Positions 42,188 to 48,360 of a DNA stretch of 64,000 nt are shown here, in pieces. Position 1 is the first letter of the stretch. Each line of letters starts with the position of its first letter. The DNA is from Asanoa ishikariensis (GTDB taxonomy: Bacteria > Actinomycetota > Actinomycetes > Mycobacteriales > Micromonosporaceae). The position numbers and the translations under genes are program-made. A model generated the notes under the pieces. It was not told the origin of the DNA. It saw nothing but the letters and a program-made list of their open reading frames with translations, and ran no database searches. The stretch spans positions 124,001 to 188,000 of the forward strand of contig NZ_FNQB01000001.1 in assembly GCF_900107455.1 (NCBI RefSeq). Reading direction: 5' to 3'.

Positions 42188-43054
42188 CTAGGCGCCGCGA
42201 AGCTTGAGGCAGAGGACGTAGTCGTTGAGGTCGAGCGGGCTGTCGAAGAAGTACCAGTCCGTGTAGCCGTCGACGTCCTTGCACTTCTTCTCGGCGTCGT
42301 CCTGGCCGGTGGTGGCCGCGTCGAAACGGGCCAGCACCTGGTACGTCTTCGACGCGCACTTGGCGATCTCGAGCTTCGGGTCCTCGGTCGAGCCGACGTT
42401 CTTGACGCACTGGCCCTTCTTGACGAAGCGGGCATCGGCCGACGACTCCGCGGTGGGCTGCCCGGACGGCTTCCCGGACGCGCTCGGTCCCGCCGACGGG
42501 GTGCCCGTCGACTCGGCGGCGACATTCTGCTTGTCGTCCGGGTCGGGGCGACCGACGAAGTAGACCGCTGCCGCGCCGCCGCCACACACCAGCACCGTCA
42601 GCGCGATGACCAGCGCGAGGATCGGGCTGAAGCGCTTCTTGCGCGGTGGCTCCTCGGGCGCGGTCCAGGCCGGCTCGGTGCCGTACTGCGGGAAGTTCTG
42701 GTCGTACTGGGTGGGCTGGGCGCCGTAAGGGGGTTGGCCGTAGCCTGGCTGGCCGCCATACGTCGGCTGACCGCCGTAGCCGGGCTGGCCCTGACCTTGG
42801 CCCTGGTTGGGGTAGCCGCCGCCCGGGGTCTGGTCGCCGTAGCCGGGGTTGCCGTAGTCGCCGCCGCCACCTCCGCCGTAGCTCGGTGAGCCGGGTCCGC
42901 CGGGTGGGCTTGACTGCGGCTGGCCGCCCCACGGGTCCTGTCCACCCCAAGGATCCGATGGCTGGCCGTACGGGTCGTTCGACGAACGACCTTGCCAGGG
43001 CTCCTGCGGCTGGCCGGGGTACGGTCCACCGTTGGGCGGTCCGTAGTTCGACAT
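42188..43054 (-). CDS. Pro/Gly/Tyr-rich single-pass membrane protein (LppU-like)
   Basis: 288 residues. Residues 1-135 are a Pro/Gly/Gln/Tyr-rich cytoplasmic tail with QPGYGGQP-type repeats. A basic stop-transfer (PPRKKRFSP) precedes the membrane helix (about 143-167). A Ser/Pro/Thr linker and a ~95-residue outer domain follow, with four cysteines (GQCVKN, AKCASK, KKCKDV, VLCLKL) that could form two disulfides. The outer domain resembles the LppU/SCO-type actinobacterial family of unknown function. ATG has AGGAGG 8 nt upstream. Single gene, ended by a hairpin. Confidence 0.78.
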   Translation of the reverse strand: MSNYGPPNGGPYPGQPQEPWQGRSSNDPYGQPSDPWGGQDPWGGQPQSSPPGGPGSPSYGGGGGGDYGNPGYGDQTPGGGYPNQGQGQGQPGYGGQPTYGGQPGYGQPPYGAQPTQYDQNFPQYGTEPAWTAPEEPPRKKRFSPILALVIALTVLVCGGGAAAVYFVGRPDPDDKQNVAAESTGTPSAGPSASGKPSGQPTAESSADARFVKKGQCVKNVGSTEDPKLEIAKCASKTYQVLARFDAATTGQDDAEKKCKDVDGYTDWYFFDSPLDLNDYVLCLKLRGA

Positions 43055-43183: not shown

Positions 43184-46100
43184 TCAGATCAGGCGCAGTT
43201 GACGGTCCTTCGGCCGGCGTTCCTCTGTCGCGCCGAGCCGTTCGAACAAGCCGGCGTCGATCGCGTCGAGGAACGGCGACGGGCCGGTGTCACGCTCCGT
43301 GCCGAGGCGGAAGCGGCGCTGGGCGTGTGACACGTACAGCCGGTCCTGCGCCCTGGTCAGCCCGACGAAGAACAGCCGACGCTCTTCGGCCAGGTCGTCG
43401 TCGGTGGTGCGGCCGTCGAAGAAGCGCAGCGGGAGCAGGCCGTCCTCGCAGCCGACCAGGAAGACGACCGGGAACTCGAGCCCCTTGGCCGCGTGCAGGG
43501 TGAGCAGCGTGACCGCTTCGGCGCGGGCGTCCAGGGCGTCGACCTCGGCGCCGGTGGCCAACTGCGAGAGGAACTGCTCCACATCGTCGCCGCAGCGCTG
43601 GGCCAGCGGGGTGAGCACCTCGACGGCCGACCACACGTCCGCCGGACTCGGGCTGCCGGTGCTGTCCAGGGTGGGCGTCGCGAACCGTTCGGCGAGGAGC
43701 TGACCGGCACGGCGTACGCGCGCGGGAAGCTGACCTTCGTTTGTTGGTCCCGCCAGCCGCAGCTCCCGGGCGATCGCCGCCACGCCCGCTCGGTCGCGGA
43801 GCCGGTTGTGCGAGCGCTTCTGGACCGGGATGCCGGCCCGGGCCAGCGCCTCGACGATCGGCGCGGCCTGCTGGTCGGTGCGGTAGAGCACGGCGACGTC
43901 GGAGAACGAGATGCCGGCGGCGTTGCCGCTGATCCGGCCCGAGTCCAGCGACCGGTGGGAAAGGCCACCGACCAGGTCGTCGACGGTACGGGCGACGAAG
44001 TCGGCCTCGTCGGTGGCGGAGCTCGCCGGGTAGCGGCCGACCAGCGGCGCCTCGGGATCGAGCCGGGCGGGGTCCAGTCGCCGTCCTCTCACCAGTGACG
44101 AGGGCGCGATCGCCTGCACGGCGGCGGCCAGGATCGGCGCGGAGGAGCGGTAGTTGCGGGTCAGCCGGACCAGCCGGGCGTCGATGAAGTCCTCGGCGAA
44201 CCGCAGGAAGTAGCCGACGTCGGCGCCGCGGAACGAGTAGATCGCCTGGTCGGGGTCGCCGATCGCGCACAGGTTGCCGTCCGGCGGGCAGAGCAGGCGG
44301 AGCAGCTCGTACTGGGTCTCGTCGACGTCCTGGTACTCGTCGACGAACAGCCACCGCCAGCGGCCCTGGTAGCGGTCGACCAGGTCGGCGTCCTCGGCCA
44401 GCAGCCGCAGCGGCAGTGTGACCAGCTCGTCGAGGTCGACCAGGTCCTGGTTGCGGAGGAGCTTTTGATAGGCGGCGTCGTCGTCACCGGCCTCCTTGCG
44501 CGCGGCCTCCCGCTCGGTGTCGTCGGCGATGCGGAAGTCTTTCGGCAGTCCGGCCGCGGCGGCGTTCTCGCGGAGGATGGCCAGGCCGAGCGAGTGGAAG
44601 GTCGCGACGGTGACGTCGGAGGCGACCGGTCCCATCAGGCCGTCGAGCCTGGTCCGTAGCTCCTCGGCGGCTCGTCTGGTGAACGTGATCGCCAGGCAAT
44701 GTTCGGCGAAGACGCCCAGCTCGGCGCAGAGATAGGCGATCCGGTGGGTGAGTGTCCTGGTCTTGCCGGTGCCGGGGCCGGCGACGATCAGCATGGGACC
44801 GCCGGGGGCCGACGCGGCGACGCGCTGCATCGCGTCCAGGCGGTCGAGCAGGCCGGTGCCGACCTCTTCCATGCCCGCGAGCATCGGCTCGAAGGGCTCG
44901 TGCGGGGAGGCCTGTTGGGGTGGCGGTGGCGGCACGGCGGGTTCGACGCGTTTGACCGGGCCGCGGCGGGCTGATCCCTCTGACGGGCGGTCCGGCTGGG
45001 TTTTTGCGGCTTTGCGTTTGATCTGCGGCGGTACGTCGAAGAGGGTGTCCGCCTGGGGTTCCTTGCTCGGCAGTTCGTTCTTGTCGAAGACGCGGATGAT
45101 GCCGTAGGCGCCGTCGTAGCCGGGGATGCGGTGCACCTCGGCACGGCGTAGGCGGCGGATGGCCTCTTCGAGGTGGTCGCCGCCGGCCTTCTTGATGTCG
45201 TCCAGCGGGGTGTCGCGGAGGATGGTCAGCTCTGGGCCGAGGGCCGCGACCAGGGTGTTGAGCTTGCCTTCGACGGTTTTCGATCTTGGTCCGACGCCGG
45301 CGATCTCGCCGAGGATCTCGGCCAGGGCGAGCAGGTGCTGGACCGGCTTGGGGTCTTTTCGGATTTGTCCAGCTTGCCGGTCGGCCAGCTCCTCGACACG
45401 GCTCAGGACACCCACGGTCAGCGGTTTGTGGCATTCGGGGCAGAGGCCGCCGGCCGCCTGGGTCTGGTTCGGTTGCCAGTTGACGCCGCAGAGCCGGTGG
45501 CCGTCGGCGTGGTACTTGCCCTCCTCGGGGAAGAACTCCAGCGTGCCGGCCAGGCCGTTGCCGGTGCGGAGGGCGTCGCGGACGGCGAAGTAGTCGAGTT
45601 CGGTGGCCAGCACGGTGGCCTCGCGGGCCAGGGCCGGCGGCGAGTGCGCGTCCGAGTTGGACACCAGTTGGTAGCGGTCGAGGCTCGACACCCGCCAGTT
45701 CATCGCGGGGTCGGAGCTCAGGCCCGTCTCGACGGCGAAGATGTGGTCGGCGAGGTCGGCGTAGCAGTCGGCGATCGCATCGAAACCGGATTTGCTGCCC
45801 AGCGCGGAGAACCAGGGCGTCCAGATGTGCGCCGGGACCAGGTAGCCGTCCGGGCTCGCCTCCAGCGTGATCTCCAGGAGATCGCGCGAGTCGAGACCGA
45901 GAATCGGCCGGCCGTCAGAGGCGAGGTTGCCGATCCGCCCGAGCGCCGTGTTGAACCGCGCGGCGGCGTCGAGGTCGGGCAGGTAGATCAGGTGATGCAC
46001 CTTGCGGGTGCGGTCGTCCCGCTTGTAGATCGTCGAGATCTCGACCGACAGCGTGAAGCGGACCTGCTCCTCGGAGCTCGCCAGCCGCGGCGGAAGCTGC

Positions 46101-46360
46101 TGGGTCGCCGCTCGTTCGGCGTCCCGACTCAGCCGGAACAGTCCGGGTTCGGCCGGTTGAAGGTTTTCCCTCAGGTGGTCGAACCAGGCCGGATGGGTGA
46201 AATCGCCGGTGCCGAGCAGCGTGACGCCTTTGCGGCGGGCCCACAGCGCGAGGTTGGGCAGGGTTAGGTCGCGACTGCAGGCGCGGGAGTACTTGGAGTG
46301 GATGTGCAGGTCCGCCACGAAGGGTGCGGCGCTGTACGGGAGCACGCCGCATAGTGCCAT
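43184..46360 (-). CDS. PHP-domain / UvrD-family helicase fusion protein
   Basis: 1058 residues joining two enzymes. Residues ~1-330 are a PHP-type metal phosphoesterase: H19-x-H21 in ADLHIHSKYSRAC, GTGDFTHP, VHHLIYLPDL, PAHIWTPWF and SNSDAHSPP supply the expected metal ligands. A zinc-ribbon-like segment (LCGVNW...CPECHK, about 292-310) and a helix-hairpin-helix-like stretch (IAGVGPRSKTVEGKL) follow, then a Pro-rich linker. From ~500 is a superfamily 1A helicase: Q motif, Walker A AGPGTGKTRT, motif Ia AITFTRRAAEEL, Walker B FVDEYQDVDETQY, motif III GDPDQAIYSFRGA, motif IV RLTRNYRSS, motif V LTLHAAKGLEFPVVF and motif VI GLTRAQDRLYVS. All helicase motifs look intact. ATG at 46360 chosen because it begins just before the PHP strand. 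Role in DNA repair or defence is inference. Confidence 0.9.
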   Translation of the reverse strand: MALCGVLPYSAAPFVADLHIHSKYSRACSRDLTLPNLALWARRKGVTLLGTGDFTHPAWFDHLRENLQPAEPGLFRLSRDAERAATQQLPPRLASSEEQVRFTLSVEISTIYKRDDRTRKVHHLIYLPDLDAAARFNTALGRIGNLASDGRPILGLDSRDLLEITLEASPDGYLVPAHIWTPWFSALGSKSGFDAIADCYADLADHIFAVETGLSSDPAMNWRVSSLDRYQLVSNSDAHSPPALAREATVLATELDYFAVRDALRTGNGLAGTLEFFPEEGKYHADGHRLCGVNWQPNQTQAAGGLCPECHKPLTVGVLSRVEELADRQAGQIRKDPKPVQHLLALAEILGEIAGVGPRSKTVEGKLNTLVAALGPELTILRDTPLDDIKKAGGDHLEEAIRRLRRAEVHRIPGYDGAYGIIRVFDKNELPSKEPQADTLFDVPPQIKRKAAKTQPDRPSEGSARRGPVKRVEPAVPPPPPQQASPHEPFEPMLAGMEEVGTGLLDRLDAMQRVAASAPGGPMLIVAGPGTGKTRTLTHRIAYLCAELGVFAEHCLAITFTRRAAEELRTRLDGLMGPVASDVTVATFHSLGLAILRENAAAAGLPKDFRIADDTEREAARKEAGDDDAAYQKLLRNQDLVDLDELVTLPLRLLAEDADLVDRYQGRWRWLFVDEYQDVDETQYELLRLLCPPDGNLCAIGDPDQAIYSFRGADVGYFLRFAEDFIDARLVRLTRNYRSSAPILAAAVQAIAPSSLVRGRRLDPARLDPEAPLVGRYPASSATDEADFVARTVDDLVGGLSHRSLDSGRISGNAAGISFSDVAVLYRTDQQAAPIVEALARAGIPVQKRSHNRLRDRAGVAAIARELRLAGPTNEGQLPARVRRAGQLLAERFATPTLDSTGSPSPADVWSAVEVLTPLAQRCGDDVEQFLSQLATGAEVDALDARAEAVTLLTLHAAKGLEFPVVFLVGCEDGLLPLRFFDGRTTDDDLAEERRLFFVGLTRAQDRLYVSHAQRRFRLGTERDTGPSPFLDAIDAGLFERLGATEERRPKDRQLRLI

Positions 46361-46414
46361 GCCCCGCCGACGAATGCGGTGACCGTCCACCGTGGTGCGG
46401 CGTGTCGCACTTCC

Positions 46415-47710
46415 TTATGGGCTACGAAGTTCCACAAGGGTGACTTGTGGTGGTGCGCCGACCCGAACGGGCGGCCCCCAGAATCCGGCACCGTTGGTGA
46501 CGTAGAGCTGGGTGTCACCGAACCGCGCGTAGCCGTTGACGACGGGCTGCTCGAGCCGGACCAGGAAGTTGAACGGGACCATTTGCCCGCCGTGGGTGTG
46601 TCCGGAGAGCTGCAGGTCAACCTTGTTGTCGGCGGCGTCGTGGACCTGGATGGGCTGATGTGCGAGCAGGACGACGGGTATGCCCGGATCACGGTCCCGC
46701 AGGGCGCCCGCGATGTCCGGCCCGCCGGTGCTGGTGCCCTCACCCGCGATGTCGTTGACCCCGGCGAGGTCGATCGCGCCACCGCGCGCGGTGATGAGCT
46801 GGCGCTGGTTTCGCAACGTACGGATGCCGAGGCGCTCGACCTCGGCCAGCCACTCCTCGGCGCCGGAGTAGTACTCGTGGTTACCGGTCACGAAGAAGGC
46901 GCCGTGCTTGGACTGGATGTCGCGCAGCGGCGCGGCGGCGGCGCCGAGCTCAGCGACGCTGCCGTCGACCAGGTCACCGACAACGGCCACGAGGTCGGCC
47001 TGGGTCCGGTTGATGGCGGCGACCACGCGTTCGGTGTGCGCACGACCGGCGAGCGGGCCGAGGTGGATGTCGGAGACGGTCGCGATGCGGAAGCCGTCCA
47101 TGCTGCGGGGGAGCTTGGCCAGGGTGATCTGGACCCGGTCGAGCCGCGGGGCGCTGAGGGCGGTCCGCGCTCCGTAGGCGGTGATGCCGGTGGCGGTGAG
47201 CCCGGCGAAGATGGCGGCTCCGCGGGCGAGCAGCAGTCGCCGCTCGATGCCGGGCGGTGTTGGGCTCGGGTCGTCGTCGCGTGGCTGCGGTGCGGTCGTG
47301 GTGGTGCCGGCGGGTTGCTCTTTCACGGGCAGAGGTTCCGCGTTCGCGCCGGCGGCGGTGGCCGCGGGCACGGCTTCGCTGAGGTCAGCGGTGGCGGTTT
47401 CCGCGGTGGTCGCGCGGCGGCGGAGTGCGATGCGGACGAGCAGCATCGGGATCTCCAGCAGGAGCAGCACGACCAGCAGGTAGAACATCAGCGCGATCCA
47501 CAGATACCCGGGCCAGGCGAGCGCCGTGGCGCCGGTGCGGGTGCCGATCAACGTGGCAGGCACCAGCAAGCCCAGGACGACGGCCAAGACCGCACCGGCC
47601 CGCCGAACCCGCCCGGGACGCGTCGTGTCCCGGACAAGCCGTTTCCAGATGTAGAAGTGGATCAGACCGATGACGGCAAAAGCGACGACGACCAGCAGAA
47701 CGATGCCCAC
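46415..47710 (-). CDS. Membrane-anchored metallophosphoesterase
   Basis: 431 residues. Three or four helices lie at about 1-95, then a Thr/Ala/Pro linker and another hydrophobic segment with arginines (RRLLLARGAAIFAGLTATGITAYG). The calcineurin-like phosphoesterase follows: D214-x-H216 (VSDIHLG), D246 (VGDLVDG), N277-H278 (GNHEY), the later histidine in LLAHQP, and GHTHGGQ. All metal ligands are present. This is the YkuE/YaeI-type family active at the membrane face, possibly on UDP-diacylglucosamine or phospholipid substrates; the true substrate is unknown. The GTG start directly follows the moaD stop. Confidence 0.9.
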   Translation of the reverse strand: MGIVLLVVVAFAVIGLIHFYIWKRLVRDTTRPGRVRRAGAVLAVVLGLLVPATLIGTRTGATALAWPGYLWIALMFYLLVVLLLLEIPMLLVRIALRRRATTAETATADLSEAVPAATAAGANAEPLPVKEQPAGTTTTAPQPRDDDPSPTPPGIERRLLLARGAAIFAGLTATGITAYGARTALSAPRLDRVQITLAKLPRSMDGFRIATVSDIHLGPLAGRAHTERVVAAINRTQADLVAVVGDLVDGSVAELGAAAAPLRDIQSKHGAFFVTGNHEYYSGAEEWLAEVERLGIRTLRNQRQLITARGGAIDLAGVNDIAGEGTSTGGPDIAGALRDRDPGIPVVLLAHQPIQVHDAADNKVDLQLSGHTHGGQMVPFNFLVRLEQPVVNGYARFGDTQLYVTNGAGFWGPPVRVGAPPQVTLVELRSP

Positions 47711-48020: not shown

Positions 48021-48360
48021 GCGCGGGAGAGCGCCAACGTGCCGCGGTGGCGAGGTGTCGGTGTTGCGCTCAGGCGGGGAGCGCGAACGCGCGGCGGTGG
48101 CGAGGTGTCGGTGTTTGGGCTCTCGCAGGGAGCGCCAGCGTGCGGCGGTGGCGAGGTGTCGCTGTTTGGGCTCTCGCGGAGAGTGCGAACGTGGCGAGGT
48201 GTCGGTGTTGGGCTCAGACGGAGAGCCTGAACGCGCCGCGGTAGCGAGGTGTTGGTGTTGGGCTCACGCGGGGAGCGAACGCGCCGCGGGGGCGAGCTGT
48301 CTGTGTTGGGCTCACGCGGAGAGTGCGGGCAGGCCCAGGTGGCGAGGGTGCTGGCGCTGG
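48021..48360. repeat. Intergenic tandem array, ~50-bp unit, 7 copies
   Basis: The core CGAGGTGTC (or one-base variants) recurs at 48051, 48101, 48152, 48195, 48245, 48293 and 48343, a period of 43-51 bp. Most units read like GGGCTCACGCGGGGAGCG then AACGCGCCGCGGTGGCGA. Several frames stay open because 51 is a multiple of three, but there is no start or ribosome site and codon use is unnatural, so I treat it as non-coding. It fills the gap between the divergent moaD start and the 3' end of moaA. Confidence 0.85.

Follow-up and report, generated by a model that had tools for sequence, protein, structure and literature searches.

Why would a bacterium join a PHP phosphoesterase to a complete UvrD-type helicase in one polypeptide? 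The question is raised by a minus-strand gene in a 64,000-nucleotide stretch of the Asanoa ishikariensis genome (NCBI RefSeq assembly GCF_900107455.1, contig NZ_FNQB01000001.1, positions 124,001 to 188,000; hereafter, the window). An earlier reading of the sequence (the original prediction) had noted the fusion and considered it a possible repair or anti-phage effector without an assigned function. Our analysis confirms the observation and supports part of its interpretation: the protein is likely to be a clamp-tethered nick-and-unwind enzyme that would repair DNA at deaminated bases and abasic sites by combining incision with strand removal.

The two halves of the fusion protein

The first 433 residues of the fusion (numbered from the ATG at 46360) match only one kind of solved structure, the Pyrococcus furiosus Endonuclease Q (PfuEndoQ) entries 5zb8 and 7k30-33 (best E 1.6e-44). 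Residues 16–77 and 116–425 correspond to 5zb8 residues 5–66 and 79–383, and the stretch noted earlier as resembling a helix-hairpin-helix aligns to the C-terminal part of EndoQ. The full set of PHP metal ligands that had been recognized in this chain (HxH, GDFTH and NSDAH) is indeed intact on the minus strand. It comprises H19, H21, D53 and H56 (both within GDFTH), E107, H122, H178, and D237 and H239 of NSDAH, where E107 is assigned to PfuEndoQ Glu76 by position, as the PDB alignment skips that stretch. The CxxC zinc ribbon is present as well and reads H288-x2-C291...C307-x2-C310.

How well are these residues conserved? In an alignment of 77 distinct fusion sequences (82 minus five that were second fetches of a gene already included) with 65 bacterial EndoQ sequences lacking an in-frame helicase, H19, H21, D53, H56, E107, H122, H178, G213, S215, D237 and H239 are kept in all 77 fusions and C310 in 76. 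Expressed in PfuEndoQ numbering, the equivalents of His8, His10, Glu76, His84, His139, Gly169, Ser171, Asp193 and His195 occur in every fusion; among the 65 helicase-less sequences the first His is missing in two and the Ser in one. The PHP metal site, whose possible loss in close homologs had been envisaged earlier, is thus retained in all 77 fusions. The H-x2-C...C-x2-C form of the zinc ribbon is found in both fused and helicase-less sequences with few exceptions, and the histidine that stands for the first Cys of the four-cysteine ribbon is shared by 64 of the 65 helicase-less ones.

EndoQ nicks DNA 5′ of hypoxanthine, uracil, xanthine and apurinic/apyrimidinic (AP) sites, leaving 5′-phosphate and 3′-OH products (PMC4357722; papers are cited here and below for individual passages). 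Its zinc site (Glu76, His84 and His139) is described as required for activity, and His139, Gly169 and Ser171 as forming a pocket that excludes normal bases (PMC8307549). To judge from these similarities, the PHP half is an Endonuclease Q homolog in which both the metal site and the base pocket are intact. Since the metal-ligand and pocket residues are conserved, its predicted substrates are deaminated bases and AP sites. The earlier statement that no function has been assigned does not hold for this half, because EndoQ is an assigned enzyme. In one standalone EndoQ from the window's phylum (locus L030, 1435-2931, minus strand), HxH reads D-Y-I-H, so that the first metal His is replaced, which could reflect either a genuine change of the site or an error in the sequence.

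The best structural matches of the C-terminal part are PcrA, UvrD and Rep. All superfamily 1A (SF1A) helicase motifs, listed as complete in the original prediction, could be aligned to PcrA (1pjr): I, Ia, II (DEYQD), III (GDPDQ), IV (NYRS), V (TLHAAKG) and VI (VGLTRA). Searches with the whole fusion gave matches well above chance level and returned PF00580 (E 1e-62) and PF13361 (E 2e-32) from Pfam, PcrA 1pjr (E 7e-81) and EndoQ 5zb8 (E 3e-43) among solved structures, and PcrA-type helicases together with TIGR00375 (E 7e-41) from NCBIfam. All NCBIfam matches remained under their curated cut-offs, including TIGR00375, a hypothetical equivalog (140.9 bits against 326.6), and the pcrA equivalog TIGR01073 (365.4 against 911.2).

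The helicase half encoded in the window is short in two regions. Its TFH and DExQD motifs are 87 residues apart, compared with 127–156 in 21 other helicases, and motifs IV and V are 218 residues apart, compared with 259–299 in 18 others. We take the two shortened stretches to be helicase subdomains 1B and 2B. Across EndoQ-linked helicases, the first spacing spans 61–211 residues and the second 145–297, and several distant fusions show normal 1B and 2B spacings; therefore, the shortening is not general.

A shrunken relative of the helicase half, about 400 amino acids long and without EndoQ, occurs in genomes of the same family (L037-L040, L225-L236). The four such proteins inspected retain Walker A, have an altered DEYQD (e.g. 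DDLHD) and end in QPRLL. At E <= 7.5e-42 this relative is present in 31 of 300 family genomes: 28 of the 300 have no TIGR00375 match (8 of the 28 inferred), and 26 of these encode it, as do 5 of the 272 that have such a match. None of the fusion's neighbor genes lies beside it in the three regions compared.

Candidate clamp-type motifs at the ends of both halves

The β-clamp-binding motif is QL[S/D]LF, or more generally QxxLF, and a clamp dimer offers two sites for it (PMC12309361). Binding to PCNA, with stimulation of the enzyme, is reported for archaeal EndoQ, and a β-clamp consensus at the C-terminus of bacterial EndoQs has already been noted (PMC4858679). How regular is this feature, and does the helicase half share it? 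We counted it in a scan of species genomes from which the best 80 EndoQ loci were taken by similarity to a standalone EndoQ, using patterns that exclude the archaeal PAHAFTPW forms. In 17 of these loci the EndoQ frame continues into a helicase, in 60 it is complete and has no helicase in frame, and in 3 it is cut by a contig end.

QxxLF lies within the last nine residues of 44 of the 60 complete EndoQ frames and of 0 of 477 background open reading frames (ORFs); a looser pattern gives 50/60 and 3/477. The corresponding Fisher value (2e-51 for the strict pattern) is overstated, because the EndoQ sequences are related. The background consists of mechanical, non-overlapping frames of at least 150 codons from the sampled loci and five further loci; the tail counts omit five loci of the window's phylum, whose other ORFs remain in the background. 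With split pairs and interrupted fusions excluded, the proportions are 41/55 for QxxLF and 47/55 for the loose pattern.

In the fusions, the motif is found at the former EndoQ end, that is, at the junction, in 11 of 17 cases (13 by the loose pattern), and QxxLF also ends the helicase in 11 of the 14 fusions with a complete C-terminus. All six helicase frames that follow an EndoQ frame (L101, L122, L140, L153, L162 and L163) end in QxxLF. By comparison, QxxLF was absent from all 19 complete distinct ends of other UvrD-type helicases in the fusion's own genome and 12 further genomes, and from all 29 complete ends of helicases in genomes with a standalone EndoQ. Candidate clamp-type motifs, as read from sequence, are therefore present at the ends of both halves in most distant relatives. 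The QxxLF pattern at the C-terminus of EndoQ frames and the second motif at the helicase end of fusions are new findings.

In the window's own group the motifs are weaker. C-termini read Q[LM]RL[IL] in 30 of 35 distinct ends, and the Gln column of the window's QLRLI is invariant in 19 aligned linked helicases. At the junction, all 63 distinct sequences show LF and then D, E, P or A, and in 38 of them a Q precedes LF by two or three residues. By way of comparison, the NucS protein encoded in the fusion's own genome ends in ELTLF.

Lineage, distribution and gene neighborhood

Do the EndoQ-linked helicases represent one lineage? In a helicase tree, 29 EndoQ-linked sequences (fused or adjacent) and 22 other helicases fall on opposite sides of one branch, with an ultrafast bootstrap of 100 and a Shimodaira–Hasegawa-like approximate likelihood ratio test (SH-aLRT) value of 99; the branch recurs in 100% of 200 bootstrap trees. 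The 22 others come from the fusion's own genome, from 12 genomes reached through the sampled loci and from two neighboring genes (L093, L096), and most share genomes with linked ones. The tree omits helicase parts shorter than 380 residues (L129, L146, L148), the cut L172, the divergent L194 and the duplicates L004 and L005. In an EndoQ tree, for which SH-aLRT was the only support computed, 32 fused or re-split sequences group together (SH-aLRT 99), and beside them stand 12 standalone sequences, mainly from Nitrospirota, and the split pairs L101 and L122. The split pair L163 sits inside the fused group in both trees.

The helicase half is thus part of a separate branch of UvrD helicases; in this analysis, every full-length member of that branch was either fused to EndoQ or encoded right next to it. 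In 26 genomes with a standalone EndoQ, no full-length linked-type helicase was seen apart from EndoQ; 22 of these genomes had a match, and 30 of the 36 listed matches were inspected, using the C-terminal motif as well as scores, since the search model had been trained on linked helicases. A seemingly EndoQ-less helicase among the fusion relatives (G044) is situated at a contig end. The simplest history would start from neighboring genes and proceed through one fusion and later transfer among phyla, with at least one re-splitting (L163). We reject the reading as an ordinary PcrA/UvrD helicase with a chance N-terminal neighbor, since many phyla carry both parts in a single open frame and the helicase tree speaks against it.

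A search for the two-domain fusion across genomes, as the original prediction had suggested, found it in several other phyla. TIGR00375 matches are present in 272 of 300 sampled genomes of the window's family, none of the 300 above the curated cut-off, and in 7 of 396 genomes of the phylum. Five of these seven lie within frames of more than 1000 amino acids that include the helicase; the sixth is truncated at a contig end, and the seventh (L030) is standalone. Fused cases among the best 80 loci come from Elusimicrobia, Chloroflexi, Fibrobacteres, Desulfobacterota/'Deltaproteobacteria' (L160 being the Desulfonema magnum chromosome), Bacteroidota (Prolixibacteraceae), Planctomycetota (Pirellulaceae), KSB1 and one further bacterium; 17 fused of 80 is no census, because the loci were chosen by similarity to a standalone EndoQ. 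Of the 60 complete frames that lack an in-frame helicase, three have a separate, adjacent helicase gene on the same strand (L101, L122, L163), two look like interrupted fusions (L140, L153) and 55 are alone. L140, L153 and L162 have a frame interruption within the linker or beyond it, and in L051 the helicase frame breaks off; these interruptions may be sequencing errors or real splitting.

In the window, the fusion occupies a single uninterrupted frame of 1068 codons from the GTG at 46390 to the minus-strand stop codon at 43184-43186, and frame 1 of the plus strand across 43184-46360 contains stops. The gene is present as a single copy in its genome, and a protein with 96% identity over the entire length is encoded in one other genome of the same genus. 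An assembly artifact is not credible, because full-length or near full-length matches recur across many genomes.

The eight neighbors examined encode GT87, DoxX, an AAA ATPase, a protein without Pfam match, a calcineurin-like phosphoesterase, ThiS/MoaD, MoaA and fructosamine kinase; as stated in the original prediction, there is no nuclease partner among them. The order fructosamine kinase–MoaA–ThiS–metallophosphoesterase–fusion, in which the metallophosphoesterase adjoins the fusion, is kept in four of the seven fusion regions compared, and in three of those four the downstream genes are at least partly retained. The 288-residue product of the downstream gene is rich in Gly, Pro and Gln in its N-terminal part and contains cysteines in its C-terminal part. 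At 48022-48327, in the interval that separates the ThiS/MoaD gene from the MoaA gene, a unit of about 50 base pairs is repeated in tandem about six times (77% matches).

Table 1. Features of the fusion gene and its immediate neighbors (window coordinates)
Feature	Coordinates	Strand	Remarks
EndoQ-UvrD fusion gene	43184..46360	minus	1058 amino acids from ATG 46360; alternative GTG start 46390
EndoQ-like domain, residues 16-426 (PHP metal site, zinc ribbon, C-terminal region)	45083..46315	minus	phmmer to PfuEndoQ 5zb8/7k30; TIGR00375 E 7e-41
HxH metal ligands H19-I-H21 (PfuEndoQ His8, His10)	46298..46306	minus	
Variable linker, residues 427-499	44864..45082	minus	between EndoQ and helicase domain matches
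Junction motif QADTLF, residues 436-441	45038..45055	minus	position of standalone EndoQ's C-terminal clamp motif; near-consensus only
UvrD/PcrA-type SF1A helicase, residues 500-1043, motifs I-VI intact	43232..44863	minus	
C-terminal QLRLI, near-consensus sliding-clamp-type motif	43187..43201	minus	
Upstream neighbor, calcineurin-like metallophosphoesterase	46415..47710	minus	54 nucleotides from fusion ATG
Downstream neighbor, uncharacterized 288-amino-acid protein	42188..43054	minus	without Pfam match

A predicted nick-and-unwind enzyme and its alternatives

How might the two halves work together? The EndoQ half would flip out a uracil, hypoxanthine, xanthine or abasic residue and nick 5′ of the lesion, leaving a 3′-OH, and a 5′-phosphate on the damaged end. 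At this nick, the 3′-to-5′ helicase would then load onto the undamaged strand; by moving in the direction of the lesion it would peel off the 5′ end that carries the damage, which would become a flap. A DNA polymerase could extend the 3′-OH, a 5′ nuclease trim the flap and ligase seal the remaining nick. Both halves would be tethered to the dimeric β clamp by the two motifs, probably behind replication, so that incision, unwinding and resynthesis would take place at one site.

Several observations weigh against this proposal. The loading strand and the direction of movement are taken from the UvrD class, and the activity of every fusion is a prediction from sequence. Because both the TIGR00375 and the pcrA cut-offs are missed, we class the protein as a variant and as an equivalog of neither. 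The motifs of the window's protein are only close to the consensus, QADTLF being one residue too long and QLRLI lacking the final F; strict QxxLF is found in just 14 of the 63 distinct junctions of its own group, and 10 of the 60 EndoQ frames are without even the loose C-terminal motif. The existence of the shrunken helicase relative without EndoQ in some family genomes weighs slightly against an exclusive pair. Finally, the fusion's own genome also has four matches to the uracil-DNA glycosylase (UDG) superfamily and a partial EndoV-like match, so that the pathway would be redundant.

A different order of action would have the UvrD half open or track DNA at forks or R-loops, with EndoQ inspecting and nicking deaminated single-stranded DNA and other enzymes handling the nick. 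EndoQ is reported to be active on both duplex and single-stranded DNA (PMC8307549), and clamp-type motifs fit work at forks. The present data do not separate the two orders, but the 55 lone EndoQ frames imply that EndoQ in general does not need a helicase, and we regard this alternative as rather unlikely. We consider it quite improbable that the specificity of the EndoQ half has drifted towards a different lesion, with the protein acting in general AP-site or nick processing and the helicase serving recombination or conflict resolution. The missed TIGR00375 cut-off and a substrate specificity deduced from sequence would be compatible with such drift, as would the description of hypoxanthine and uracil as less suitable PfuEndoQ substrates than an abasic analog (PMC11354406). 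However, the pocket equivalents of His139, Gly169 and Ser171 are unchanged in all 77 fusions.

The anti-phage role considered in the original prediction would direct the fusion against modified (e.g. uracil-containing) phage DNA, comparable with helicase–nuclease defense pairs such as Gabija. That Bacillus EndoQ might act against viruses is mentioned in a review (PMC8307549), and PADLOC GajB models match the helicase half, but these are generic SF1A helicase matches. The neighbors are not defense-like and are partly kept in order, and the sole PADLOC match among seven of them is a weak one to mad8. The wide spread within the family does not favor defense either, nor do the mobile-element sets searched: at E 1e-5, neither the 50,697 phage records nor the 72,556 plasmid records contained an EndoQ match, and a pattern-based scan of viral contigs gave none. 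On these grounds we reject a defense role as very improbable; the other part of the earlier interpretation, a DNA repair enzyme acting without an adjacent nuclease, remains plausible.

The nick-and-unwind proposal can be extended to a glycosylase-independent excision repair of bacteria, in which one polypeptide, attached to the β clamp through two motifs, would nick 5′ of deaminated bases and displace the damaged strand, and which would have arisen from a joined EndoQ–helicase gene pair and spread over several phyla. The fusion's own genome has a NucS match and no MutS_I match, and there the pathway would represent a nick-and-unwind counterpart of MutH/L–UvrD mismatch repair. We see the chances of this broader scheme as evenly balanced. 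EndoQ has been described mainly from archaea, with few bacterial carriers (PMC4357722), and here a bacterial form fused to its own helicase is seen, by TIGR00375 matches, in about nine in ten sampled genomes of one family, and also in several other phyla. If such genes are annotated merely as helicases, an activity that repairs uracil and hypoxanthine may go unnoticed. For archaea, the identity of the factor that lifts off the damaged end once EndoQ has nicked is a proposal (PMC4858679); a built-in helicase with a clamp-type motif makes this step directly testable with one purified protein.

How does the fusion compare with known systems? In the open literature we found no paper describing an EndoQ–UvrD fusion, and thus no indication that it is already a known, assigned family; subscription papers and figures, including the domain figure with bacterial EndoQs in PMC4357722, were outside the scope of this search. 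With Endonuclease Q itself (PfuEndoQ, TkoEndoQ, Bacillus pumilus EndoQ) it shares, over residues 16-426, homology, metal ligands, base pocket and zinc ribbon position, and in most relatives a clamp-type motif ending the EndoQ part; it differs in the fused helicase, the His in place of the first zinc-ribbon Cys, the TIGR00375 score below the cut-off and an activity that is predicted. Compared with PcrA, UvrD and Rep, motifs I–VI align, whereas the linked helicases form a separate branch with a QxxLF-type C-terminus absent from the others, and the window's helicase has smaller 1B and 2B regions and misses the PcrA cut-off. Gabija GajB is likewise a UvrD-type helicase (PADLOC E 2e-72), but the fusion has EndoQ instead of a GajA-like partner, none of which was found among the seven neighbors scanned, and its locus is chromosomal. 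A further parallel is the clamp-coupled incision by EndoQ and PCNA in Thermococcales, where strand displacement is proposed for the polymerase, followed by Fen1 (PMC4858679); in the fusion, coupled incision is a prediction, and a built-in helicase with its own clamp-type motif would take over the displacement. Both halves are of known kinds, and the new element is a dedicated, fused helicase that carries a clamp-type motif of its own.

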